From positions 1-64,000 of the forward strand of contig NZ_JAAIKB010000005.1 in assembly GCF_011040385.1 (NCBI RefSeq): a stretch of 64,000 nt of DNA, given 5' to 3'. A program made the translations under genes and the position numbers. Below, piece by piece: positions 23,581 to 44,019 of the stretch. Source of the DNA: Falsiroseomonas algicola (GTDB lineage: Bacteria > Pseudomonadota > Alphaproteobacteria > Acetobacterales > Acetobacteraceae). Every line of letters starts with the position of its first letter. Position 1 is the first letter of the stretch. The notes below the pieces were generated by a model. The model saw nothing but the letters and a program-made list of their open reading frames with translations, did no database searches and had not been told where the DNA came from.

Positions 23581-24576
23581 ATGATCCGGAAGACTGTGTC
23601 GCGCGCGGTGCGCGCGGTGGCCGTGGCGGCCGCGGTGCTGCTGCCCTTCGCCCCCGGCGCGGGCAGCGCCCAGGAATGGCGCGGCTGGAACATCCATGCG
23701 GCCGATTATCCGAATGGCCGCGGCCTCGACCGCTTCGCGGAGCTGGTGGGGAGCCGCAGCAACAACCGCATGCGGCTGCGCACCTATCACAGCGCGCAGC
23801 TCGGCCAGCAGGATGAGGCGATCCAGCAGATGCGGCTGGGCTCAATCGACTTCGCCAACTTCAACCTGAGCCCCTTCAACAACCTGGCCCCCTCCACCAA
23901 CGTCGTCACGCTGCCCTTCCTGTTCCGGGACGTGGCGCACAGCCATGCCGCGATCGATGGCGTGGCGGGGCAGGAGATCGCCCGCGACCTGGAGCAGATC
24001 GGGATCATCGCGCTCTCCTGGTTCGATGCGGGGGCGCGCAGCCTCTACACCACGCGCCCCGTCCGCACGCCGGCCGACCTCCGCGGCATGAAGATCCGCG
24101 TGCAGACCTCCGACCTCTGGATCGACCTGATGCGGGCGCTGGGCGCGAACCCGACGCCGCTGCCGTTCGGCGAGGTCTTTACCAGCCTGCAATCCGGCGT
24201 GATCGACGGGGCGGAGAACAACTGGCCGTCCTATGAAAGCACGCGCCACTTCGAGGTCGCCCGCTTCTACACCACCACCGAGCACAGCAACGTGCCGGAG
24301 GTGCTGGCCGTATCCCAGCAGCGCTGGCGCCGCCTGAACGATGCGGAGCGCAACATCCTCCGCGACGCGGCGCGCGAAGCGGCGACGCTGCAGCGGCAGC
24401 TCTGGGCGGAGCGCGAGGTGGCCTCCCGCCAGCGGGTCGTGGCGGCCGGTGCCACCGTCATCGAGATCCAGGACCGCTCGCCCTGGTCCGCCCTGATGGC
24501 CCCGGTCTATGAGAAGTACACGGGCGGCAATGCGCGCCTGTCCGGCCTGGTGCAGCAGATCCGCGCTCTGCGCTGA
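23581..24576 (+). CDS. dctP: TRAP transporter substrate-binding protein DctP
   Basis: A 331-residue periplasmic receptor for a TRAP carboxylate transporter, with a Sec signal (about 1-30, cleaved at GSAQ). Family marks are GQQDEAIQQMRLGSIDF, DLRGMKIRVQTSD with the Arg that grips the ligand carboxylate, and FGEVFTSLQSGVIDGAENNW. The gene heads an operon with DctQ, DctM, a lactonase, uronate dehydrogenase and an epimerase, so a hexuronate such as galacturonate or glucuronate is the likely ligand (inference from neighbours). A hairpin after the gene may lower expression of the membrane subunits. Confidence 0.92.
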   Translation: MIRKTVSRAVRAVAVAAAVLLPFAPGAGSAQEWRGWNIHAADYPNGRGLDRFAELVGSRSNNRMRLRTYHSAQLGQQDEAIQQMRLGSIDFANFNLSPFNNLAPSTNVVTLPFLFRDVAHSHAAIDGVAGQEIARDLEQIGIIALSWFDAGARSLYTTRPVRTPADLRGMKIRVQTSDLWIDLMRALGANPTPLPFGEVFTSLQSGVIDGAENNWPSYESTRHFEVARFYTTTEHSNVPEVLAVSQQRWRRLNDAERNILRDAAREAATLQRQLWAEREVASRQRVVAAGATVIEIQDRSPWSALMAPVYEKYTGGNARLSGLVQQIRALR

Positions 24577-24584
24577 CCGTCCCT

Positions 24585-24612
24585 GGGGGGCGTCCTCGGG
24601 CGTCCCCCTTTC
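24585..24612 (+). terminator. Leaky terminator/attenuator between dctP and dctQ
   Basis: A 10-bp stem (arms about 24585-24594 and 24599-24608, two G-U pairs) is followed by TTTCT, in the 65-base gap between dctP and dctQ. Such an element fits the usual need for more binding protein than membrane protein. Confidence 0.5.
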
Positions 24613-24641
24613 TCGTCGTTCTTCTGGCAGGACGCGCGCCC

Positions 24642-25157
24642 ATGGCGATGTTCACCCGTGCCCTCGACCTCTTCTCGCGGCTGGTCATCGTCATCGCCGG
24701 CGCCGCGCTGGTGGGCCTCGTCGCGATGATGGGGTGGCTGGTCTTCGGCCGCTACGTGCTGAACGACACGCCGACCTGGATCGAGCGCGCGGCGACGCTC
24801 TCCATCCTCTGCATCGCGCTGCCGGTGGCGGCCGTCGGGGTGCGGGAGCGTTTCCACCTCTCGGTGCTCGGGTTCCGGGAAGCGCTGCCGATCGGCATCC
24901 AGCGCTGGATCGCGGTGGGCTGCGACGCGCTGGTCGGCGCCTTCGGCTTCGCCATGGCCTGGTATTCCCAGGAACTCGTCGACATGGTCTGGAACTTCAG
25001 GATTCCGCTGCTCGGCATCAGCCAGGGCTGGACCTATGTGCCGCTGCAGGTCTGCGGCGGCCTCATCACCCTTTTCGCCATCGAGCAGGTGCTGCTCGAC
25101 ATCCTCAGCAAGGATGGCCCCGAACAGCGCGGCGTGAAGGCCGCCTTCCTGGAGTAG
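24642..25157 (+). CDS. dctQ: TRAP transporter small permease DctQ
   Basis: A 171-residue inner-membrane subunit with four hydrophobic helices, the standard DctQ size. The WIERAATLSILCIALPVAAVGVRERFHL stretch in the second helix region is typical. It would pair with DctM to form the membrane part of the transporter. Six bases separate it from dctM, and the start ATG 24642 follows a GGCAGGA ribosome site. Confidence 0.9.
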   Translation: MAMFTRALDLFSRLVIVIAGAALVGLVAMMGWLVFGRYVLNDTPTWIERAATLSILCIALPVAAVGVRERFHLSVLGFREALPIGIQRWIAVGCDALVGAFGFAMAWYSQELVDMVWNFRIPLLGISQGWTYVPLQVCGGLITLFAIEQVLLDILSKDGPEQRGVKAAFLE

Positions 25158-25163
25158 CCCCGC

Positions 25164-26462
25164 GTGGAATTCGGCCTGTTCCTGATCTTCGCGGTCTTCG
25201 TCGTCGGCGTCGTCGCCGGCGTGCCGGTGGCCTTCGTGCTCGGCATCGCGGCCCTGGTCGGCTTCATCTATGAGGGCATCAACCCCGCCGTCGCCTTCCA
25301 GCAGATGGCGAGCGGCATGAGCATCTTCGCCCTGCTGGCCATTCCCTTCTTCGTCTTCGCCGGGGAGTTGATGCTGCATGGCGGCATCGCGCGGCGGCTG
25401 GTGGCGCTGGCCTCGGCCGCGGTCGGGTGGATGCGGGGCGGGCTCGGCATGGTCGATGTCTCCACCTCCATGCTCTTCGGCGGCATCTCGGGCTCCGCGG
25501 TCGCGGATACCTCCGCCACCGGCGTCATCCTGATCCCGGCCATGAAGGCCAAGGGGTATGGGGTGGATTACGCGGTGTCGCTGACCGTCACCTCCTCCAT
25601 CGCCGGCATCCTGATCCCGCCCAGCCACAACATGATCCTCTACAGCCTGGCGGCGGGGGGCGGCATCTCCGTCACCGCGCTGTTCATCGCGGGCATCGTG
25701 CCGGGGCTGCTGATGTGCGGCTTCCTCGCCATCGCGGCCTATGTGATGGCGGTGCGGCGCGGCTATCCGGCGGAGCCCTGGGCGGGCTTCAAGCATCTGG
25801 CCCTGAAGTTCCTGGATGCGCTGCCCGGCCTCTTCACCGCCATCATCATCCTGGGCGGCGTGCTGTCCGGCATCTTCACCGTGACGGAAAGCGCCGCCTT
25901 CGGCACCATCTGGGCGCTGCTGGTCACCATCATCGTCTATCGCAACCTGAGCTGGGAGAGCTTCAAGGTCGCGGTGGCGGCCGCGGTGCGCACCTCCGCC
26001 GTGGTGTTCCTGCTGGTCGGCACGGCGACGGCCTTCGCCTACCTCCTGGCGCTCTACCGCCTGCCGGATCTGCTGACGGAGGGGATGCTGGCCATCAGCG
26101 ACAACCCCGTCGTCATCATGCTGCTGATCAATGTCTGCCTGCTGCTGCTGGGCTGCGTGATGGACATGGCGGCGCTGATCCTGATCACCACGCCGATCTT
26201 CCTGCCCGTCGTCGTCGCGATCGGGATCGATCCGGTCCAGTTCGGCATGATCATGATGATGAATCTCGGCCTCGGCCTGACCACGCCGCCGGTCGGTGCC
26301 GTGCTCTTCGTGGGCTGCGCCATCGGCCGCATCCGGATCGAGGAGGTGATGCGGACGATCTGGCCCTTCTACGGCGCCATCCTGGCCGCGCTGCTGCTGA
26401 CCACCTACTGGCCCGCCGTGTCGCTGACCCTGCCGCGGCTGCTGCTGGGCTACGAGGGGTAG
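25164..26462 (+). CDS. dctM: TRAP transporter large permease DctM
   Basis: A 432-residue, 12-helix inner-membrane permease that moves the substrate in with sodium ions. Characteristic blocks are VPVAFVLGIAALVGF, the GGISGSAVADTSATGVILIPAMKAKGY loop (helical hairpin region), LIPPSHNMILYSLAAGGGIS and the C-terminal GLTTPPVGAVLFVG. Start is GTG 25164. The lactonase gene follows 4 bases after its stop. Confidence 0.94.
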   Translation: MEFGLFLIFAVFVVGVVAGVPVAFVLGIAALVGFIYEGINPAVAFQQMASGMSIFALLAIPFFVFAGELMLHGGIARRLVALASAAVGWMRGGLGMVDVSTSMLFGGISGSAVADTSATGVILIPAMKAKGYGVDYAVSLTVTSSIAGILIPPSHNMILYSLAAGGGISVTALFIAGIVPGLLMCGFLAIAAYVMAVRRGYPAEPWAGFKHLALKFLDALPGLFTAIIILGGVLSGIFTVTESAAFGTIWALLVTIIVYRNLSWESFKVAVAAAVRTSAVVFLLVGTATAFAYLLALYRLPDLLTEGMLAISDNPVVIMLLINVCLLLLGCVMDMAALILITTPIFLPVVVAIGIDPVQFGMIMMMNLGLGLTTPPVGAVLFVGCAIGRIRIEEVMRTIWPFYGAILAALLLTTYWPAVSLTLPRLLLGYEG

Positions 26463-26466
26463 GGCC

Positions 26467-27339
26467 GTGTCCTTCCAGCTGGTCGCCGACCTGCGGGCCA
26501 GTGTCGGCGAAAGCCCGGTCTGGGATGCGCGGCGCGGCGTGCTGTGGATGGTGGACATCCTGGCCCGCGACGTCATCCGCTTCGACCCCACCGATGGCGC
26601 CATGCGCCGCATCCCGGTGCCGGAGGTCTGCGGCAGCCTCGCCCTGTGCCGCTCCGGCACGCTGCTGGTGGCACAGCGCGCGAGCGTGGTGCGCCTCGAC
26701 CCCGAGACCGGCGCCATCGCCGCCTTCGCGACCATGCCGGAGGAGCCCGCCCATAACCGCCTGAATGACGGCAAGGTGGGGCCGGATGGCTGCTACTGGG
26801 TCGGCAGCATGGACGACCGGTCGGAGAAGGGGCCGACCGGCATCCTCTGGCGCGTGCGGCCCGATGGGGTGGTGGAGCGGCGGCGGGACGGCCTCGTCGT
26901 CTCCAACGGCCTGGCCTGGAGCCCGGATGGCCGGCGCATCTGGCATTCCGACAGCCGCCGCGCCGTGCTCGACATCGCGGATTTCGACCCCGCCACCGGC
27001 GCCATCGGCGAGTGGCGGCGGGTGATCCAGCTGGATGAGGCGACGGGCCGCCCGGATGGCGCGGCGATGGATGCGGAAGGCCACTACTGGTCCGCCGGCG
27101 TCTCCGCCGGCCGGATCAACGTGATCAGCGCGGAGGGCGTCATCCTGCGCCACCTGCCCTTCCCGGTGCCGGCGCCGACCATGCCCTGCTTCGCCGGACC
27201 CGATCTCCGCACCCTCTTCGTCACCAGCCTCCGCGCCGGCAAGGACGAGGCGACGCTCGCCGCGCATCCCGGGCTCGGCGGGCTGTTCCGGGGCGAGGGG
27301 TTGGGACAAGGTGCGCCCGTGACCGACTTCGCGGACTGA
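26467..27339 (+). CDS. SMP-30/gluconolactonase-family lactonase
   Basis: A 290-residue six-bladed beta-propeller lactonase. The metal ligands are visible: Glu in VGESPVWD, Asn in PAHNRLNDGK and the Asn/Asp pair in SNGLAWSPDG with WHSDSRR. It hydrolyses sugar lactones with a divalent metal. Uronate dehydrogenase encoded next releases an aldarolactone, which this enzyme would open to galactarate or glucarate. Starts at GTG 26467. The assignment to that lactone is inference from operon context; gluconolactone is the alternative. Confidence 0.87.
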   Translation: MSFQLVADLRASVGESPVWDARRGVLWMVDILARDVIRFDPTDGAMRRIPVPEVCGSLALCRSGTLLVAQRASVVRLDPETGAIAAFATMPEEPAHNRLNDGKVGPDGCYWVGSMDDRSEKGPTGILWRVRPDGVVERRRDGLVVSNGLAWSPDGRRIWHSDSRRAVLDIADFDPATGAIGEWRRVIQLDEATGRPDGAAMDAEGHYWSAGVSAGRINVISAEGVILRHLPFPVPAPTMPCFAGPDLRTLFVTSLRAGKDEATLAAHPGLGGLFRGEGLGQGAPVTDFAD

Positions 27340-27351
27340 GGAAACCCATTC

Positions 27352-28188
27352 ATGACCAAGCCCATCCTGCTGACCGGCGCTTCCGGCAACCTTGGCCGCA
27401 TGCTGGCGAAGGAACTCTCCGCCGCGGGCCACACGCTGCGCCTGACCGACATCGCGCCCTTCCCGGACCCGCTGCCCGCCAATTGCAGCTTCACCCGCAT
27501 CGACCTGAACGAGGGCATGGGCATCCTGCGCCTGGCGGAGGGCTGCGGCACCATCCTCCACTTCGGCGGCATCGCGACGGAGCATCCCTTCGAGGTGGTG
27601 CTGGGCCCGAACCTGCGCGGCCTCTACCACATCTATGAGGCGGCCCGGCGGGAAGGGGCGCGCGTCGTCTTCGCCTCCTCCAACCACTCCATCGGCTTCC
27701 ACACGCGCCCGACCGGGAACGCCGAGCGGCTCGACCTCGACTGCGCCTTCCGGCCGGATGGCTTCTACGGGCTCTCCAAGGCCTATGGGGAGCTGATGGG
27801 GCGGATGTACTGGGACAAGCATGGCGTGGAGAACGTCAATGTCCGCATCGGATCCTGCTTCCCCAAGCCCACCAACAAGCGGATGCTCTCCACCTGGCTG
27901 AGCTACGCCGACCTCGCGCGGATGATGAAGGCCATCATCGGCGCGGAGCGCGTGGGCCATGCCGTGATCTGGGGTGCCTCCAACAACCCCGAGACCTTCT
28001 GGGGCAAGGACCACCGCGACCGCATCGGCTGGAAGCCGGAGGACAGCGCGGAGGATTACCGCGCGGAGGTCGGGCACATCGTCTCCGACGACCCGGTGGA
28101 GGAACGCTACCAGGGCGGCAGCTACACCTCCGACGGCTATACGCGGAAGGGTGGCTTCTCCCCGCGCGACCAGTTCGACCTCGACTGA
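27352..28188 (+). CDS. udh: Uronate dehydrogenase
   Basis: A 278-residue short-chain/extended NAD enzyme that oxidises D-galacturonate or D-glucuronate to the aldarolactone. NAD site LLTGASGNLGRML; catalytic Ser in VFASSNHSIGFH and the YxxxK motif YGLSKAYGE. The blocks HFGGIATEHPFE, RIGSCFPKPTNKRMLSTWLS and VIWGASNN match Agrobacterium uronate dehydrogenase as I remember it. Neighbours (TRAP, lactonase, mutarotase) fit an oxidative hexuronate pathway. It lies 12 bases after the lactonase and its TGA overlaps the next ATG by one base. Confidence 0.88.
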   Translation: MTKPILLTGASGNLGRMLAKELSAAGHTLRLTDIAPFPDPLPANCSFTRIDLNEGMGILRLAEGCGTILHFGGIATEHPFEVVLGPNLRGLYHIYEAARREGARVVFASSNHSIGFHTRPTGNAERLDLDCAFRPDGFYGLSKAYGELMGRMYWDKHGVENVNVRIGSCFPKPTNKRMLSTWLSYADLARMMKAIIGAERVGHAVIWGASNNPETFWGKDHRDRIGWKPEDSAEDYRAEVGHIVSDDPVEERYQGGSYTSDGYTRKGGFSPRDQFDLD

Positions 28189-29027
28189 TGATCCTGGCAG
28201 CGGGCGATTGGCGGGCGGAGCTGGTGCCGGAGGCGGGCGTCGCCTTCCGGTCGCTGACCTTGGCGGGGCGGGATGTGCTGCGGCGCATCCCCGACGGCGC
28301 CGACCCGAACAACGGCTTCCACGGCGCCTTCATCATGGCGCCCTGGACCAACCGGCTGGAGGATGGGCGGATCGTGGTCGGCGGCGTGGAGCACCGCATG
28401 CCGATCAACCGCCCGACCGAGGGCAACGCGCTGCACGGCTTCATCCGCGACCTCGCCTGGTCCGTGGAGCAGCAGGATTCATCGCGCGCCACCTTCGGCT
28501 GCGCGCTGGACCATGCGCCCTTCCGCTGCAGCGCGAGCCTGTCCGTGGCGCTGTCCGATGCTGGGCTGGCGCTGTCGCTGGCCCTGACGAATACGGGCGA
28601 TGCGCCGACGCCGATGGGCATGGGCTGGCATCCCTGGTTCGCGCGCCCCGCCGGCACGCGGCTCCGCTTCCACGCCACCACCATCTTCGGCCGCGACGCC
28701 AGAAGCATCTCCTCCGGCGCACGGCCGAGCGCGGGGCTGAACGGCGACGACGCCGTGCTGCTCGGGCTCGACACGCATTTCGCGGGCTGGGATGGCGCGG
28801 CCACCATCACCTGGCCGGACGGCACCGCCATCACCATGCGCGCCGCCGGCGACTGGGCGCGAAACCTGCAGGTCTTCGCGCCGCGTGGCGGCGACGTGCT
28901 CTGCGTGGAGCCCGTCAGCCATGTGCCGGATGCGGTGAACCGCCCCGCGAATGCCGCGCATGGTGCGATGCATCTGCTGTCGCCGGGCGCGTCGCTCGAC
29001 GCCTCACTGATGATTCATCGCGCCTGA
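28188..29027 (+). CDS. Aldose 1-epimerase (mutarotase) family protein
   Basis: A 279-residue galactose-mutarotase-fold protein. Catalytic candidates are His in EGNALHGFIRD, His in MGMGWHPWFARP and Glu in CVEPVSHVPDAVN, with the NPTNHPYF-type motif replaced by the GWHPWF variant found in uronate and related subgroups. It would interconvert anomers so the dehydrogenase can use the whole sugar pool. Last gene of the hexuronate operon, coupled by a 1-base overlap (TGATG). Confidence 0.85.
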   Translation: MILAAGDWRAELVPEAGVAFRSLTLAGRDVLRRIPDGADPNNGFHGAFIMAPWTNRLEDGRIVVGGVEHRMPINRPTEGNALHGFIRDLAWSVEQQDSSRATFGCALDHAPFRCSASLSVALSDAGLALSLALTNTGDAPTPMGMGWHPWFARPAGTRLRFHATTIFGRDARSISSGARPSAGLNGDDAVLLGLDTHFAGWDGAATITWPDGTAITMRAAGDWARNLQVFAPRGGDVLCVEPVSHVPDAVNRPANAAHGAMHLLSPGASLDASLMIHRA

Positions 29028-29070
29028 GGGCGCGACGCACGCTTTTCGTGCATCCGCGTTCCAACACGCG

Positions 29071-29095
29071 GGAACAATCGCCGCGTCGTGACGTT
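29071..29095 (+). promoter_or_regulatory. EcfG-type general stress response promoter
   Basis: GGAAC at 29071-29075 and CGTT at 29092-29095 are separated by exactly 16 bases, the consensus for the alphaproteobacterial general stress sigma factor EcfG. It lies 71 bases before the ATG at 29167, in a non-coding gap after the uronate operon, and points at the DUF5872/DUF3140 genes. The match is complete at all nine consensus positions. Confidence 0.8.
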
Positions 29096-29166
29096 CGCCT
29101 TCGCAACCCGATGCGTCGCGCATTGTGGCGCGCAGCATGGCGTGCATCGTGGAGGGAGCGGACTTC

Positions 29167-29574
29167 ATGGCGAGCACCGCGCAGCGGACGGACCCCGCAC
29201 TCTGGGAAAAGGTGAAGCGCCGCGTGATGCGCGGCGACAAGGGTGGCGATCCCGGTGAATGGTCGGCGCGCAAGGCGCAGTTGGCCGTCGCCGAATACAA
29301 GAAGGAAGGCGGCGGCTATGTCGGCGGCAGGAAGGCCGACAACAGCCTGGCGCGCTGGACCAAGGAGGATTGGGGCACGGCGTCGGGCAAGCCTTCGGGC
29401 GAGACCGGCGAACGCTACCTGCCCAAGGCCGCGCGGAAGCGCCTGACCAAGGACGAGGTCGCGCGCAGCACGGCGAAGAAGCGCGCCGACACCAAGGCGG
29501 GGAAGCAGTTCTCCGCCCAGCCGAAGGACGTGGCGCGCAAGGCCGCCACAGCGCGGAAGGCGGCGTCGCGATGA
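29167..29574 (+). CDS. DUF5872-type basic protein
   Basis: A 135-residue lysine-rich protein. The blocks DKGGDPGEWSARKAQL, EYKKEGGGYVGGRK, WTKEDWGT, SGKP and ERYLPKAARKRLTKDE match the family I know as DUF5872, whose function is not established. The C-terminal 40 residues (KKRADTKAGKQFS..., KAATARKAASR) are highly basic, so nucleic-acid binding is likely. Start ATG 29167 gives the family N-terminus; an upstream in-frame ATG at 29125 is less likely. It overlaps the next gene by 4 bases and sits behind an EcfG promoter, so it should rise under stress. Confidence 0.75.
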   Translation: MASTAQRTDPALWEKVKRRVMRGDKGGDPGEWSARKAQLAVAEYKKEGGGYVGGRKADNSLARWTKEDWGTASGKPSGETGERYLPKAARKRLTKDEVARSTAKKRADTKAGKQFSAQPKDVARKAATARKAASR

Positions 29575-30758
29575 GCAGCGAAGCCGATGTCGCGCGGGAT
29601 TTCCGCCGCCTCGTGAATCTCTCCGCCGAGGAGCTGCGCGACTGGCTCGGCACGGCGGAGAGCAGGGAGGCGGGCTGGACGCAGGAGGGGGAGCAGGAAT
29701 CCGTCGGCCATCAATCCGGCCGCTGGATCTTGTCTTTCCTGGAGAGCGGCGCATCCGAACCGGATGAGGCGGATGCGGGGCAGATGCGCCGGGTGGTGGG
29801 CTACATCCACCGCCACCTCGCGCAGCGGCCCAAGGGCGACGTCAGCGACACGCGCTGGCGCCACAGCCTGATGAACTGGGGGCACGACCCCCTCAAGGAG
29901 GATCGACGCATGAGCGACGAGATGAACCAGGCGAACGAGGCCGAGGACATGCCGGCGGAGCCGATGCCCGCGCCGGCGGAGGAGAAGCCGAAGCGCCGGC
30001 GGGCGGCGACGCCCCGCAAGGCAGCCGATGGCGAGGCCAAGCCGGCGCCGCGACGCGCGACGAAGGCCGCTTCCGGCAGCACCGCCAAGGCAGCGCCGAA
30101 GCGGGGCGCGGCGGGTCGCACGGCGGCGGCGGCGAAGGGCGGGCGCAGCAGCACGGGCACGGCCCGCAAGGCGGCGTCCTCCTCCACCCGCTCCACCCGC
30201 AAGGCCGCCGGTGACGGCGCGGCCAAGGCGGCACCGAAGCGCGCCACCAAGGCCACCGCAAGCCGCAGCGCGGCGGGTCGCACGGCGGCGGCGGCGAAGG
30301 GCGGGCGCAGCAGCACGGGCACGACCCGCAAGGCGGCGTCCACCACCACCCGCAAGGCGGCGACGAAGGCGCCGGCCAAGCGCGCCAGCGCGACCGGCAC
30401 GCGCAAGGCGGCGTCCGGCACCACCCGCAAGGCCAGCGGCACGGCGCGCAAGGCGACGATGAGCCGGTCGGAGGCGGCGTCCAAGGCTGGCAGCGCGCGC
30501 ACGCCGAAGAAGGCCGCGGCGGCGCGGGCGAATGGCGCCAAGGGCGGCGCCGCCCGCGCCAAGGCGGCGACCACCCGCCGCGCCAGCACGGCCAAGGCCG
30601 CGCCGAAGGCCGCTGCCAAGACGACCCGCGCGAAGAGCACGGCCGCCAAGTCCGGCCCGCCCAAGGCCGCGCCGAAGCGGGGCGCGGCCGGCCGCACGTC
30701 TGCCGCCGCCAAGGGCGGGCGCAGCAGCGGCGGCAGCAGCCGCGCCAGCCGGGCCTGA
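29571..30758 (+). CDS. DUF3140 domain fused to a histone-H1-like Lys/Ala-rich tail
   Basis: A 395-residue protein in two parts. Residues 1-112 form a complete DUF3140 domain: DFRRLVNLSAEELRDWL, ESVGHQSGRWIL, RRVVGYIHRHLAQRPKGD and TRWRHSLMNWGHDPLK, where stand-alone family members normally end. From residue 114 a 280-residue low-complexity tail rich in Lys, Ala, Arg, Thr and Ser follows, resembling bacterial H1-like proteins, with KRGAAGRT and AAKGGRSS units repeated three times. The tail should bind DNA without sequence preference. In-frame Met114 has its own strong ribosome site. Co-expressed with the DUF5872 gene under stress control. Function is inferred. Confidence 0.8.
   Translation: MSSEADVARDFRRLVNLSAEELRDWLGTAESREAGWTQEGEQESVGHQSGRWILSFLESGASEPDEADAGQMRRVVGYIHRHLAQRPKGDVSDTRWRHSLMNWGHDPLKEDRRMSDEMNQANEAEDMPAEPMPAPAEEKPKRRRAATPRKAADGEAKPAPRRATKAASGSTAKAAPKRGAAGRTAAAAKGGRSSTGTARKAASSSTRSTRKAAGDGAAKAAPKRATKATASRSAAGRTAAAAKGGRSSTGTTRKAASTTTRKAATKAPAKRASATGTRKAASGTTRKASGTARKATMSRSEAASKAGSARTPKKAAAARANGAKGGAARAKAATTRRASTAKAAPKAAAKTTRAKSTAAKSGPPKAAPKRGAAGRTSAAAKGGRSSGGSSRASRA
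29895..29912 (+). promoter_or_regulatory. Internal ribosome-binding site and in-frame start for the H1-like tail
   Basis: AAGGAGGA at 29895-29902 is followed after 7 bases by ATG 29910, in the same frame as the DUF3140 gene. The spacing is ideal. Translation from here would give a 281-residue H1-like protein lacking the DUF3140 domain. Confidence 0.65.
30103..30340 (+). repeat. Direct repeat inside the H1-like tail
   Basis: Two near-identical DNA copies of about 68 bases (about 30111-30178 and 30273-30340) encode GRTAAAAKGGRSSTGT-RKAAS. A shorter, more diverged third copy lies near 30690-30735. The pattern fits growth of the tail by unequal repeat expansion. Confidence 0.75.
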
Positions 30759-30871
30759 CCTGATGCGGCGGGGGCTCTGGTCCCCGCCGCATGCCGAACC
30801 CTCACCCCCAAAGCCTGACCCAATGGGTCCCCCCCTCCCCAAGCGGCGGGTGCTGGGCAAGACTGCGGCGC

Positions 30872-32023
30872 ATGGGAAGCGCCATCATCCTCGGGGCCGG
30901 AATCATGGGCCTGTCCACCGCCTGGGCGCTTGCCCGGGCGGGGTGGTCCGTGCAGGTGGTGGAGCAGGATGGGGTGCCGAATCCGCGCGGCTCCTCCGTC
31001 GATGACCATCGCCTGATCCGCCACGCCTATGGCGCCGCCGCGGGCTACATGCGGATGATCGACCCCGCCTACGCCGCCTGGGACCTGCTCTTCGCCGAAG
31101 CGGGCGAACGCCCCTATGTGGCCACCGGCGTGCTGGCGCTGGCGAATGCCCCGGGCGGCTGGCTGGCCGACAGCCGCGCCACGCTGCGGGGCGACGGGCA
31201 TGCGGTGACGGAGTTGACGGGCGCCGAGGTCGCCGCCCGCTACCCCTACCTCTCCGGCGACGGCATCGCGGCAGCCTTTCACCTGCCGACCGGCGGCGTG
31301 CTGCTGGCCCGGCGGATCGTGGAATTGCTGGCGGCGCGGCTGGCCGCCCGCGGCGTGCCGATCCAGCGCGGCCAGGCGGTGGCGGTGGATCCCGCCCGGG
31401 GCGCGCTGACCCTGGCGGATGGCACGCGCATGGAAGCCGACCTGCTGGTCGTGGCCGCCGGCCCCTGGGCGCCGCGCCTGCTGCCCGCGCTCGCCGCCCG
31501 TGTGCGCCCGACGCGCCAGATCATCGTCCGCCTGGCGCCACCGACCGAACACGCGGAAGGCTGGGCCCGCGCCCCCATGCTGCTCGACCTGGCGGAGGAT
31601 GGCGGCTTCTACGCCGTGCCGCCGGTGGCGGGCACGCCGCTCAAGATCGGTGACCACCGCTTCGCCCCGCATGGCGATCCCGAGGAACCGCGGGAGGCGA
31701 CGGCGGCCGAGGCCGAGGAGATCCTGGCCTATGCCCGTCACCGCATCCGCGGCTTGGCGGAATACCGCGTGTTGTCCGCCGCCGCCTGCTACTACGACGT
31801 GGAGCCGCAGGAGCGCTTCGTCGTGGAACGCCTCGGCGCCCGGGCCTTCGTGATGTCCGGCTTCTCCGGCCACGGCTTCAAGTTCGGCGCGCTGCTTGGC
31901 CTGGCGATGGCGCGCGCGGCGGGTGACGAAAGCCTGGGCCGGGCCATATCCGCCTGGGCGGCCGGCGATGCGCCGCCGCCGCCGGGCCTCCTTGCCGACC
32001 TGCCTCAGGAAATCACCGCATGA
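30872..32023 (+). CDS. FAD-dependent oxidoreductase (DAO/sarcosine-oxidase-like)
   Basis: A 383-residue flavoenzyme of the DAO superfamily. The FAD motif is IILGAGIMGLSTAWALARAG at residues 4-23; the C-terminal block VMSGFSGHGFKFGALLG is typical of monomeric sarcosine oxidase and N-methyl amino-acid oxidases, which also bind FAD covalently through a Cys near the C-terminus (a CYYDVEP segment is present). It likely oxidises an N-methyl or secondary amine. It overlaps the acyl-CoA dehydrogenase gene by 4 bases, so the two are co-translated. Substrate is unknown. Confidence 0.82.
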   Translation: MGSAIILGAGIMGLSTAWALARAGWSVQVVEQDGVPNPRGSSVDDHRLIRHAYGAAAGYMRMIDPAYAAWDLLFAEAGERPYVATGVLALANAPGGWLADSRATLRGDGHAVTELTGAEVAARYPYLSGDGIAAAFHLPTGGVLLARRIVELLAARLAARGVPIQRGQAVAVDPARGALTLADGTRMEADLLVVAAGPWAPRLLPALAARVRPTRQIIVRLAPPTEHAEGWARAPMLLDLAEDGGFYAVPPVAGTPLKIGDHRFAPHGDPEEPREATAAEAEEILAYARHRIRGLAEYRVLSAAACYYDVEPQERFVVERLGARAFVMSGFSGHGFKFGALLGLAMARAAGDESLGRAISAWAAGDAPPPPGLLADLPQEITA

Positions 32024-33651
32024 CGCTGCCCTCCGCTGCAGACGACCTGATCCTCGGCCTGACGCGCGTGGTGGACCTGCCCGGGCTGACGGCGGCCGCC
32101 GGCGCGCCCCTGGCGGCGGAGGATATCGCCGCGCTCATCGAGGAAGCCGCCCGCTTCACGCGGGAGCAGATGGCGCCGGGCTGGCAGGAGGCGGACCGCC
32201 ACGGCGCCCACTACGCCAATGGCACCGTCACCACGCCCCCGCACTACAAGGCATTGATGAAAGCCTGGATCGAGAGCGGGTGGCAGGGTGTCGCGGCGCC
32301 GGAGGCGCATGGCGGGCAGGGGCTGCCGCATGCCGTCTGGGTGGCGGTGACGGAACTCGCCTCCGCCGCCGACATGGCCTTCTTCCTCGGCCCGGTGCTG
32401 ACGACCGGCGCCATCGACCTGCTGCTCGGCCATGGCACGCCGGACCAGCAGGCGCGCTTCCTGCCGAAGCTCGTCACCGGCGAGTGGAACGGCACCATGT
32501 GCCTGACGGAGCCGCAGGCGGGCAGCGACCTGGCTGCGCTCCGCACCCGCGCGGAACCCCTCGGTGACGGGCGGTATGCCCTGCACGGACAGAAGATCTA
32601 CATCACCTGGGGCGAGCACGACACGACGGAGAACATCCTCCACCTCGTCCTCGCCCGCCTGCCCGGCGCGGCGGAAGGCAGCCGGGGCATCTCCCTGTTC
32701 GCGGCCCCGAAGGTGCTCCCCGACGGCACCCGCAACGCGCTCCGCTGCGGCGGCATCGAGCGGAAGATGGGCATCCACGCCTCCCCCACCTGCATCATGC
32801 TGTTCGAGGGGGCGGAGGCGGAGCTGGTGGGCGAGCCGGGCAGGGGCCTCAACGCCATGTTCGCCATGATGAACGCCGCGCGGCTTGCCGTCGGCGTGCA
32901 GGGGGTGGCCGCCGGCGCGCGGGCGCTGGAACTGGCGGAGAAATACGCCGCCGACCGCACCCAGTCCGGCCGCCCCATCGCGCGCCACGCCGATGTCGCC
33001 CGCATGCTGGCGGAGATGCGCGCCACGACGCTCGCGGCCCGCCTGCTGGCGCTGGAAGCCGCCGCCTCGCTCGACCGGCACCACCTGCTGGGGGATGAGG
33101 CCGGGCAGGTGCGCCTGGCGCTCCTGACCCCCATCGTGAAGGCCTGGAGCACCGACCGCGGCGTGGAGAATGCCAGCCTCGGCGTCCAGGTGCATGGCGG
33201 CATGGGCTTCGTGGAGGATACCGGCGCCGCCCAGGTGCTGCGCGATGTCCGCATCACCCCGATCTATGAGGGCACGAACGGCATCCAGGCGATCGACCTG
33301 CTGGTCCGCAAGGTCGCCAAGGATGGCGGCGCCGCGATGCGCGGCCTGCTGGCGGAGGTGGCCGCCGCCGATCCCCGCCTGGCCGGCGCCGCCTCGCGGC
33401 TCGATGCCGCCACGGGGCTGATGCTGGACCTGCAGTCGCGGGACCCCGAGGCCGCGCAGGGCCTGGCGACCGCCTATCTCGATGCCTGCGGCTGGGTGCT
33501 GGGGGGCTGGATGCTGGCCCGGGCCGCCGCCGCGGCGCCGGATCGTGCGGCGCTGGCGGCCTTCTACCTCGGCCGACTGCTGCCGCGGGCGGAAGCCCGG
33601 TGCCTGGAAATAGAGCAAGGGGCGCTGGTGCCCATCCCTGCGGTGCTGTAA
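32020..33651 (+). CDS. Acyl-CoA dehydrogenase (DmdC-like subgroup)
   Basis: A 543-residue flavoprotein, longer than simple acyl-CoA dehydrogenases because of an extra C-terminal helical domain, as in the DmdC group. Marks: MCLTEPQAGSDLAALRT (FAD and acyl-CoA site), HGGMGFVEDTGAAQVLRDVRITPIYEGTNGIQAIDL, where the catalytic Glu is in YEGTNG. It would introduce a double bond into an acyl-CoA or a 3-thio-acyl-CoA. ATGA overlap with the preceding oxidase. Ends 57 bases before the carotenoid cluster. Substrate is not fixed by sequence. Confidence 0.88.
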   Translation: MTLPSAADDLILGLTRVVDLPGLTAAAGAPLAAEDIAALIEEAARFTREQMAPGWQEADRHGAHYANGTVTTPPHYKALMKAWIESGWQGVAAPEAHGGQGLPHAVWVAVTELASAADMAFFLGPVLTTGAIDLLLGHGTPDQQARFLPKLVTGEWNGTMCLTEPQAGSDLAALRTRAEPLGDGRYALHGQKIYITWGEHDTTENILHLVLARLPGAAEGSRGISLFAAPKVLPDGTRNALRCGGIERKMGIHASPTCIMLFEGAEAELVGEPGRGLNAMFAMMNAARLAVGVQGVAAGARALELAEKYAADRTQSGRPIARHADVARMLAEMRATTLAARLLALEAAASLDRHHLLGDEAGQVRLALLTPIVKAWSTDRGVENASLGVQVHGGMGFVEDTGAAQVLRDVRITPIYEGTNGIQAIDLLVRKVAKDGGAAMRGLLAEVAAADPRLAGAASRLDAATGLMLDLQSRDPEAAQGLATAYLDACGWVLGGWMLARAAAAAPDRAALAAFYLGRLLPRAEARCLEIEQGALVPIPAVL

Positions 33652-33708
33652 CCGCTTGTCCATGCCCCTTGCAGCCCCCGGGGTCGGACGCATCTGCTGC
33701 CCACCGCC

Positions 33709-35313
33709 ATGACCGCTCCCCTCTCCTCCCCCGCCCTCCACAGACCCCGGCCGAAGGTGGCCATCATCGGCGCGGGGCCAGGCGGCCTCGCCGCCGCCAT
33801 GATGCTCGCGGCCTCCGGCGCCCGCGTCACGGTGTTCGAAAAGGACAACGTGGTCGGCGGGCGCACCCGCACCCTGGCGACCGATCAGGGATACAAGTTC
33901 GACCTCGGGCCGACCTTCTTCCTCTACCCCCGCATCCTGAAGGAGATCTTCAGCCGCTGCGGCGCCGATCTCGAACAGGAGATCGACATGCGGCGGCTGG
34001 AGCCGCAATACCGGCTGATCTTCGAACAGGGCGGCAGCACCACCCAGATCGAGGCCAGCGCCGACATGGCGCGGATGGAAGCGGCGATCGCCGGCATCTC
34101 GCCGAAGGACGCCAAGGGGCTGCGGCCCTTCATGGAGGAGAACCGCGCCAAGCTCGCGGCCTTCCGCCCGGTTCTGGAACGCGCCTTCTCCACCGCCGCC
34201 GACATGATCCGGCCGGACATGATCAAGGCGCTGCCGCTGATGAAGCCCTGGTCCACGGTGGACCGTGACCTGGCGCGCCACTTCAGCGACCCGCGCGTAC
34301 GCCTCGCCTTCTCCTTCCAGACCAAGTACCTGGGCATGAGCCCGTTCAAATGCCCGGCGCTCTTCACCATCCTGTCCTTCCTGGAATACGAGCACGGCAT
34401 CTTCCACCCCATCGGCGGCTGCGGCGCGGTCTCTGTCGCCATGGCGAAGGTGGCGGAGCGCCTCGGCGCCGAGATCCGGCTGAACGCGCCCGTGGAGCGC
34501 ATCGGCTTCGAAGGCCGCCGCGCCAAGGGGGTGGAGATCGGTGGCGTGCGGCATGACGCGGACGCGGTCGTCGTGAACGCCGATTTCGCCCACGCCATCC
34601 CGCGGCTGATCCCGGATCACCTCCGCAAGGGCTGGAAGGACCGGAAGATCGGGCAGGCCAAGTATTCCTGCTCCACCTTCATGCTCTATCTCGGGCTGGA
34701 CCGGGAACTGCCGGAACTCGCCCACCACAACGTCCTGCTCTCCGAGGGCTACCAGGAGAACATCGCCCAGATCGAACGGGGCGATATCCCGGAAGTCCCC
34801 TCGCTCTACGTGCAGCACGCCGGCGCCACGGACCCGACCATGGCCCCCAAGGGCCACTCGGCGCTCTACGTCCTGGTGCCCGTGCCGAACCTCATCAAGC
34901 AGCCGGACTGGCCCGCCCAGGCCGCACGTTACCGGGAGATCGCGCTCGACCGCCTCAAGGTCCTCGGCCTGCCGGACCTGCGGCCCCACATCAAGTACGA
35001 ACGCATCGTCGCCCCCCAGGACTGGGAGAGCGACTTCGCGGTCGGCTTCGGCGCCACCTTCAACCTCTCCCACGAACTGCCGCAGATGCTGCTGTTCCGC
35101 CCGGGCAACCGCTTCCGGGACGTGGAAGGCGTCTACCTCGTCGGCGGCGGCACCCACCCGGGCAGCGGCCTGCCCGTCATCTACGAAGGGGCCCGCATCA
35201 CGACGGGGCTGATGGCGCAGGACCTCGGCCTCGCCAGCGCGCCCAGCCGCCCCACGGCCGGCGGCGACTTCGCGGCCGCCACGCCGGCCGCCGCCTACGG
35301 GCCGGATCGGTAG
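33709..35313 (+). CDS. crtN: CrtN/CrtI-type carotenoid desaturase
   Basis: A 534-residue FAD-dependent desaturase. The N-terminal FAD motif VAIIGAGPGGLAAAMMLA (about 17-34), GGRTRTLATDQGYKFDLGPTFFLYP, FSFQTKYLGMSPFKCPALFTIL and the C-terminal block YLVGGGTHPGSGLPVIYEGARIT are typical of phytoene/dehydrosqualene desaturases. In this setting it would add double bonds to squalene to give a coloured C30 chain. It is the first gene of the cluster, separated from the second by a 246-base hairpin-rich gap. C40 phytoene desaturase is the alternative, made less likely by the absence of crtB and crtE here. Confidence 0.86.
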   Translation: MTAPLSSPALHRPRPKVAIIGAGPGGLAAAMMLAASGARVTVFEKDNVVGGRTRTLATDQGYKFDLGPTFFLYPRILKEIFSRCGADLEQEIDMRRLEPQYRLIFEQGGSTTQIEASADMARMEAAIAGISPKDAKGLRPFMEENRAKLAAFRPVLERAFSTAADMIRPDMIKALPLMKPWSTVDRDLARHFSDPRVRLAFSFQTKYLGMSPFKCPALFTILSFLEYEHGIFHPIGGCGAVSVAMAKVAERLGAEIRLNAPVERIGFEGRRAKGVEIGGVRHDADAVVVNADFAHAIPRLIPDHLRKGWKDRKIGQAKYSCSTFMLYLGLDRELPELAHHNVLLSEGYQENIAQIERGDIPEVPSLYVQHAGATDPTMAPKGHSALYVLVPVPNLIKQPDWPAQAARYREIALDRLKVLGLPDLRPHIKYERIVAPQDWESDFAVGFGATFNLSHELPQMLLFRPGNRFRDVEGVYLVGGGTHPGSGLPVIYEGARITTGLMAQDLGLASAPSRPTAGGDFAAATPAAAYGPDR

Positions 35314-43937: not shown

Positions 43938-44019
43938 GCGGGCGTGCCGGAACGGTAGACGGAAGGGTCTTAAAAACCCTCGGCCTTTGGCCATGCGGGT
44001 TCGATCCCCGCCGCCCGCA
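43938..44019 (+). tRNA. tRNA-Leu (anticodon UAA)
   Basis: An 82-base cloverleaf: acceptor GCGGGCG pairing with CGCCCGC, D arm CCG/CGG, anticodon stem AGGGT/ACCCT with loop CTTAAAA (anticodon TAA), a long variable arm (GGCC-TTT-GGCC) as expected for leucine, and T arm GCGGG-TTCGATC-CCCGC. The discriminator is A and CCA is not encoded. Confidence 0.95.

Follow-up and report, generated by a model that had tools for sequence, protein, structure and literature searches.

Positions 29,071–29,095 of a 64,000-nucleotide stretch of the Falsiroseomonas algicola genome (hereafter the window) form a putative EcfG-type promoter, supported beyond chance by recurrence at orthologous loci and by the intergenic placement of other such sites in the genome, and the gene pair that follows is very likely under general-stress regulation. 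The first gene (gene A) encodes a small basic DUF5872 protein, and the second (gene B) joins a DUF3140 domain to a long histone-H1-like tail. On balance, we lean toward a two-gene general-stress unit whose products would form a DNA-condensing or DNA-shielding complex, a reading in which we infer the sigma factor dependence, the complex, the binding and the compaction. Taken singly, nucleic-acid binding by the pair is likely, whereas for nucleoid compaction as its main role we consider the chances about evenly balanced. That a DUF3140 module lies behind predicted stress-type promoters is a firmer and more general fact than the chromatin pair.

The predicted stress-type promoter and its conservation

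The putative promoter consists of GGAAC (29,071–29,075) and CGTT (29,092–29,095) on the forward strand, separated by 16 nucleotides. It lies within the 139-nt gap between the end of an aldose-epimerase gene at 29,027 and the start of gene A at 29,167, whose ATG is 71 nt downstream of the site; position, spacing and distance agree with those given in an earlier sequence-only reading of this DNA. When spacers of 15–18 nt were scanned, this was the only GGAAC/CGTT match within the 64-kb window. Shuffling gives an expectation of 0.78 matches, so a single occurrence in the window could be due to chance. Across the whole genome, GGAAC-N16/17-CGTT was found at 41 sites and a reversed control motif at 39, and since the two counts are equal in effect, motif counting was dropped as proof of a promoter.

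The placement of the genomic sites was compared using the fetched sites minus the window's own, 40 in number, with genes around them called by a simple GC-position score. Fifteen of the 40, but only four of 39 reversed controls, were intergenic and no more than 155 nt from a called start (Fisher p 0.0045), two of the 40 preceding near-identical exchanger genes; the numbers that were intergenic at all were 20 of 40 and 11 of 39. Of 12 chosen proteins encoded downstream of the genome's own sites, four stayed unmatched in Pfam at E up to 1e-4; among those identified were CsbD, an alpha-amylase-family enzyme, a short-chain dehydrogenase, a Na/H exchanger, an acyltransferase, a glycosyltransferase and a transporter. 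Nearly identical EcfG-like sites occur at L217 and L224 (contigs C18 and C28 of the window's genome, G000), and the proteins behind them are Na/H exchangers with identical first 60 residues. GCAACC-N16-CGTT was found 13 times in this genome, as against three for its reversed control, and is possibly a second form of the stress promoter.

We then turned to orthologues, using 57 family loci that comprise 55 of the 57 matches in the family genomes (two partial ones were excluded) plus the loci of G006 and G013. GGAAC-N16/17-CGTT was present in 21 of 56 upstream regions of 200 nt, the GCAAC form in 17 and the GAAAC form in three, with shuffle means for the same 56 regions of 0.12, 0.10 and 0.04, respectively; four shifted-spacing and two reversed motifs gave no match in these regions. 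Within 330 nt of the 57 loci, 22 had the GGAAC form and 17 the GCAAC form. The distance to the projected start was 27–78 nt for 18 of the 22 GGAAC sites and for all 17 GCAAC sites. These matches are not independent draws, because the sites are related by descent; promoter state changed nine times on a tree of the family loci, which was built from 104 columns for 54 of the 57 loci and is poorly resolved. When aligned, the window and four relatives share CGCGGGAAC and TGACGTT without change and differ in the flanking sequence. The promoter consensus of the sequence-only reading is kept at many orthologues, but 18 of the 57 loci have neither strict form. Among the best 80 DUF3140 loci of a wider scan (described below), a strict GGAAC site lies within 1 kb upstream of five of 15 named alphaproteobacterial loci and one of 65 other loci.

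Both promoter sequence and distance to the start resemble those of EcfG-regulated stress genes of alphaproteobacteria. For S. melonis, the tabulated EcfG-dependent genes have predicted sites of both the GGAAC and the GCAAC type, and good EcfG sites in that organism mostly lie, according to the authors, no more than 100 nt from the start, as compared with 71 nt for the site in the window; in the excerpts of this account, neither DUF3140 nor DUF5872 is named among EcfG targets (PMC6599016). As for the regulators, the window's genome has one match to the NepR anti-sigma factor over the cut-off, beside which lie sigma-like and PhyR-like open reading frames as judged by eye. No strict promoter site was found at this genome's own nepR-phyR locus. 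L001 contains no GGAAC-N15-19-GTT, and the stretch from the sigma-like to the phyR-like gene has no strict site either; the nepR region was therefore dropped as a means of deriving a promoter consensus for this organism. NepR was detected in 35 of 40 DUF3140 carriers tested (56 carriers are known) and not found in the other five (G003, G007, G521, G660 and G667), two of which, G003 and G660, carry a GGAAC site of the strict form.

The paired proteins and their appendages

Gene A (29,167–29,574, forward strand) encodes a protein of 135 residues with a pI of 10.5 and a net charge of +18 that matches Pfam DUF5872 (PF19197; E 2.2e-7, 31.9 bits, cut-off 27.5). Pfam alone was rejected as a means of detecting DUF5872, since it under-counts the family (5 of 99 genomes) and misses adjacent or fused copies that were recovered by eye and with our own profile; we therefore built profiles from our own alignments. 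In one genome (L026 in G004), only a short remnant of DUF5872 is left, with the conserved promoter on one side and DUF3140 on the other.

Gene B (29,571–30,758, forward strand), whose start overlaps the end of gene A as ATGA, encodes 395 residues. Its DUF3140 domain (residues 10–101, 29,598–29,873) matches PF11338 with E 2.3e-31 and 108.5 bits (cut-off 25), is acidic (pI 5.5), and was the only match, with no HU domain, in a Pfam scan at E up to 0.01; NCBIfam gave no match at E up to 0.1 for either protein. An acidic linker follows (residues 110–140, 29,898–29,990, pI 4.1), and then a histone-H1-like tail (residues 139–395, 29,985–30,755) that is long, basic, Ala-rich and of disorder-type composition: it has 257 residues, a net charge of +64, 32% Ala, 13% Lys and 13% Arg, and no F, W, Y, L, I or V. 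The tail contains three copies of AAGRT(A/S)AAAKGGRS, the first being AAGRTAAAAKGGRS at 30,108–30,149 and the others lying at 30,270–30,311 and 30,684–30,725, all on the forward strand. The 280-residue Lys/Ala/Arg tail described earlier corresponds to about 286 residues behind the domain, that is, the linker plus the 257-residue basic tail.

At the joint of domain and tail, the forward strand reads AAGGAGG-N8-ATG (29,895–29,912), a possible internal start that could yield a free tail. We treat it as a lead, because the Shine-Dalgarno-like run follows from common Glu and Lys codons and is missing in genera g37 and g4. Several genera nevertheless have a Met preceded by such a run at the corresponding joint.

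Among relatives, the 22 tails free of contig-end cuts are 219–403 residues long and contain 45–65% K+R+A, a range whose lower bound is partly set by definition because segments shorter than 40 residues or with less than 40% K+R+A were not counted as tails. A AAGRTAAAAKGGR unit is common to several genera and absent from the Pararoseomonas-type clade. The variable length and the repeats, which fit slippage, would suit a drifting low-complexity filler behind a promoter that is a lineage remnant. We find this barely plausible, given that K+R+A makes up 45–65% of these tails, that AAGRTAAAAKGGR is found in several genera, and that the promoter blocks are invariant and their flanks are not.

DUF5872 occurs with DUF3140 in 42 of the 57 family loci, in 29 as an adjacent gene and in 13 within one open frame, which upholds the two-gene unit of the sequence-only reading; the fusion of the two domains is the strongest sign in these sequences that they may act jointly. 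With some loci cut by contig ends, the architectures were an adjacent pair with the tail on DUF3140 (10), a fusion with (12) or without (1) a tail, a pair without a DUF3140 tail (19), and DUF3140 alone with (5) or without (10) a tail; one of the loci scored as 'alone', L018, lies behind a frame with a Rho_N-like end that the profile missed. The genes around the unit (window positions 24,507–35,313) recur around it in several relatives, and the unit itself is patchy: SMP-30, epimerase and aldose-epimerase genes precede it, and FAD oxidoreductase, acyl-CoA dehydrogenase and Amino_oxidase-family genes follow. The sole Rfam match over the gathering score in the window is a tRNA gene at 43,938–44,019.

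Of the 57 loci, 27 have the tail on DUF3140; in the clade with genus code g4, DUF5872 or both proteins carry it. A Rho_N/SAP-like segment of the GRS[RK]M type, which was seen where DUF5872 ends, was found in 16 of the 30 loci without a DUF3140 tail and in none of the 27 tailed loci, so that the scan of relatives proposed by the sequence-only reading returned recurrent basic or Rho_N/SAP-like appendages in addition to the linkage. The tail changed twice on the poorly resolved tree and is, as far as this pattern indicates, a lineage-specific addition to DUF3140. Because its gain amounts to about two events, neither the exclusivity of tail and Rho_N/SAP-like segment nor the correlation of tail and promoter counts as independent: the former is suggestive and falls short of statistical proof, and the latter was discarded as independent evidence.

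A Rho_N/SAP-like segment in the tail's place suggests nucleic-acid binding, and this bears on what the tail is for. The tail and the basic partner might instead act as disordered protectants that shield proteins or membranes when cells dry out or meet osmotic stress, with no specific DNA role, as could be expected from a stress-type promoter and from a tail that is hydrophilic, low in complexity and built in part of KGG-bearing repeats. The folded, conserved DUF3140 head and the replacement of the tail by the Rho_N/SAP-like segment in 16 of 30 untailed loci make this quite unlikely. RNA is another known ligand of Rho_N-type segments and of basic tails, and the pair could in principle bind RNA or ribosomes in stress in a hibernation-like manner. 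Pfam Rho_N does match some DUF5872 proteins (at 1e-4 in one, more weakly in two, not at all in two), always below the curated cut-off, but neither protein matches an RNA-binding family in Pfam or NCBIfam, and we judge a role of this kind very unlikely.

DUF3140 and DUF5872 in other genomes

DUF3140 is carried by 11 of 99 relatives, 54 of 397 family genomes and three of 385 class genomes, each count including the window's own genome; because only 54 of the 397 family genomes carry it, it is dispensable. A wide scan covered 84,980 species, and the best 80 DUF3140 loci among the matches listed, which are not a census, were inspected for neighbours. DUF2945 (Hva1_TUDOR, PF11160) was a neighbour in 54 of them, DUF5872 in 10, both in none and neither in 16. 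Fifty of the 54 DUF2945 genes lie directly upstream of DUF3140 on the same strand, and DUF3140 is untailed in most of the 80 loci. DUF2945 was tested only after it had been seen annotated, clustering of neighbouring open reading frames having missed it; Pfam confirmed it in all six proteins tested, five of them from these 80 loci. Clustering of all neighbouring open reading frames was itself dropped as too noisy. DUF2945 was not found in the window's genome, is present in 10 of 59 relatives, and was not detected near DUF3140 in any of the 57 family loci by single-sequence searches of the surrounding stretches.

The DUF2945-DUF3140 pairs, found mainly in Actinomycetota, resemble the unit in the window in that DUF3140 comes second behind a small partner gene and in that a stress-sigma-type promoter is present in part of them. 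They differ in having a Tudor-like partner, no tail and a SigB/SigF-type promoter, where the unit here has DUF5872 and an EcfG-type promoter. GTTT-N15-GGGTA occurs upstream of 13 of 56 actinomycete units (0.03 in shuffles; 0 and 1 with shifted spacings), and GGGTA lies within 60 nt of 32 of the 56 (3.5 in shuffles). Eight of the 13 units belong to Actinoplanes-type genera and the rest to Mycobacterium, Micromonospora and Nocardia, with none from Streptomyces. In the excerpts of the respective reports, this sequence matches promoters of the SigB homologue of S. coelicolor and of SigF in mycobacteria (PMC8346170, PMC7693655).

Given DUF2945 neighbours in 54 of the 80 loci and SigB/SigF-type promoters in 13 of the 56 units, DUF3140 seems to belong to the general-stress response of two phyla and to have partners that can be exchanged. 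A more far-reaching reading, which we offer tentatively and consider rather doubtful, is a cross-phylum stress chromatin module with a DUF3140 core that would use SigB/SigF and DUF2945 in Actinomycetota and EcfG and DUF5872 in Acetobacteraceae, with an H1-like tail added and shifted between subunits; some genera may free the tail through an internal start.

On plasmids, DUF3140 was found in 18 of 72,556 records. Seven plasmid regions were opened: in one, it lies near DUF2945, catalase and treZ, in one near catalase, and in another downstream of an overlapping pyridoxamine-phosphate-oxidase-family gene. None of the seven has a strict EcfG-type site before the DUF3140 unit, and near misses with an altered -10 were found in L198 and, by eye, in L200.

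DUF5872 also occurs in phages. It corresponds to two PHROGs, phrog_17747 and phrog_14910, one for each half, which jointly cover the domain and which are two separate frames in several marine phages and contigs. DUF5872 was detected in 17 of 50,697 phage records, from Pelagibacter, Roseobacter-group, Synechococcus and Puniceispirillum phages, and viral contigs contributed at least 593 relatives among the 600 candidates listed. The halves are separate frames in nine viral contigs (L172, L173, L174, L175, L178, L181, L184, L185 and L191), with the frame break at or one codon after GGGYK and sometimes extra sequence between the halves. Cellular DUF5872 may be a fusion of two phage-type genes, or the phage genes may be a split of it.

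Structure, known systems and proposed mechanism

Residues 1–109 of gene B were modelled as all-helical with a mean pLDDT of 93.3 (51-row alignment), and the DUF5872 model had a pLDDT of 83.5 and a pTM of 0.51. No relatives of DUF3140 or DUF5872 were found in the PDB by sequence at E up to 1. The best Foldseek hits for the two models had E of 2.8 and 5.6, and VIA-align reached a best Z of 3.0 for DUF3140, none of which is significant; the VIA-align matches to Sap1 were set aside, since Z of 3.0 and below is at noise level. Such weak or missing structural matches do not show that the predicted folds are new. The acidic DUF3140 (pI 5.5) and basic DUF5872 (pI 10.5) fit with mutual binding. For the DUF2945 partner, the excerpted paper on Cryptococcus Hva1 describes a crystal structure that resembles Tudor domains and also an NADP-binding reductase. 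Its suggestion that the Hva1 family is linked to NADPH gives no pointer to chromatin.

Two known tailed proteins invite comparison. Mycobacterial MDP1/HupB has a long disordered C-terminal tail, as gene B has, but its head is an HU domain, for which gene B has no match in Pfam. To our knowledge, the head of AlgP of Pseudomonas aeruginosa is not DUF3140 and AlgP has no DUF5872 partner. Since the head domains differ, we rejected membership of gene B in an AlgP-type or HU-type family. In the excerpted reports, the disordered tail of MDP1 brings about DNA compaction (PMC5974015), and AlgP, which is tied to polyphosphate granules, acts in starvation and has a 154-residue KPAA-rich H1-like C-terminal domain that is needed for granule spacing (PMC9239181). 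The tail of gene B is similar in kind to this AlgP domain and could bind polyphosphate or DNA and position storage granules in starvation. We consider such a tether unlikely, because the head of gene B is DUF3140 alone and a scan of six proteins encoded next to it in the window showed no phasin and no polyphosphate enzyme.

In the two-gene general-stress unit that we favour, an EcfG-type sigma factor would read the GGAAC/CGTT promoter upon stress, and genes A and B would be made together, the ATGA overlap suggesting translational coupling. The small, basic DUF5872 protein and the acidic, helical DUF3140 domain would act in one complex, whose strongly positive, disorder-type tail would bind DNA without sequence preference. 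The tail would then neutralize DNA and condense or shield it in growth arrest, as tailed bacterial nucleoid proteins do. DUF3140 would be the constant adaptor, and its partner and the nucleic-acid-binding appendage would be interchangeable. We put forward a dedicated chromatin pair as an interpretation only, because DUF3140 is acidic, matched no solved relative in the searches above, and in the best 80 loci is mostly untailed and paired with DUF2945.

The sequence-only reading regarded the pair as undescribed as a chromatin system, and this holds within the openly licensed full text of PubMed Central. There, no mention of DUF3140 or PF11338 was found, DUF5872 appeared, in the passages retrieved, only in a virus gene list, and DUF2945 came up only with Pfam 2019; PMC8715426 came up for PF19197, but its main text does not contain the term.

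DUF3140, DUF5872 and DUF2945 gain a testable role as stress-regulated partners in a nucleic-acid-binding module. If this reading is true, stress sigma factors unrelated to each other would control a common core in two phyla, each with its own partner, and one lineage would have built a counterpart of linker histones around a DUF3140 core. The module would offer a handle on how DNA is packed and protected in non-growing alphaproteobacteria and actinomycetes.
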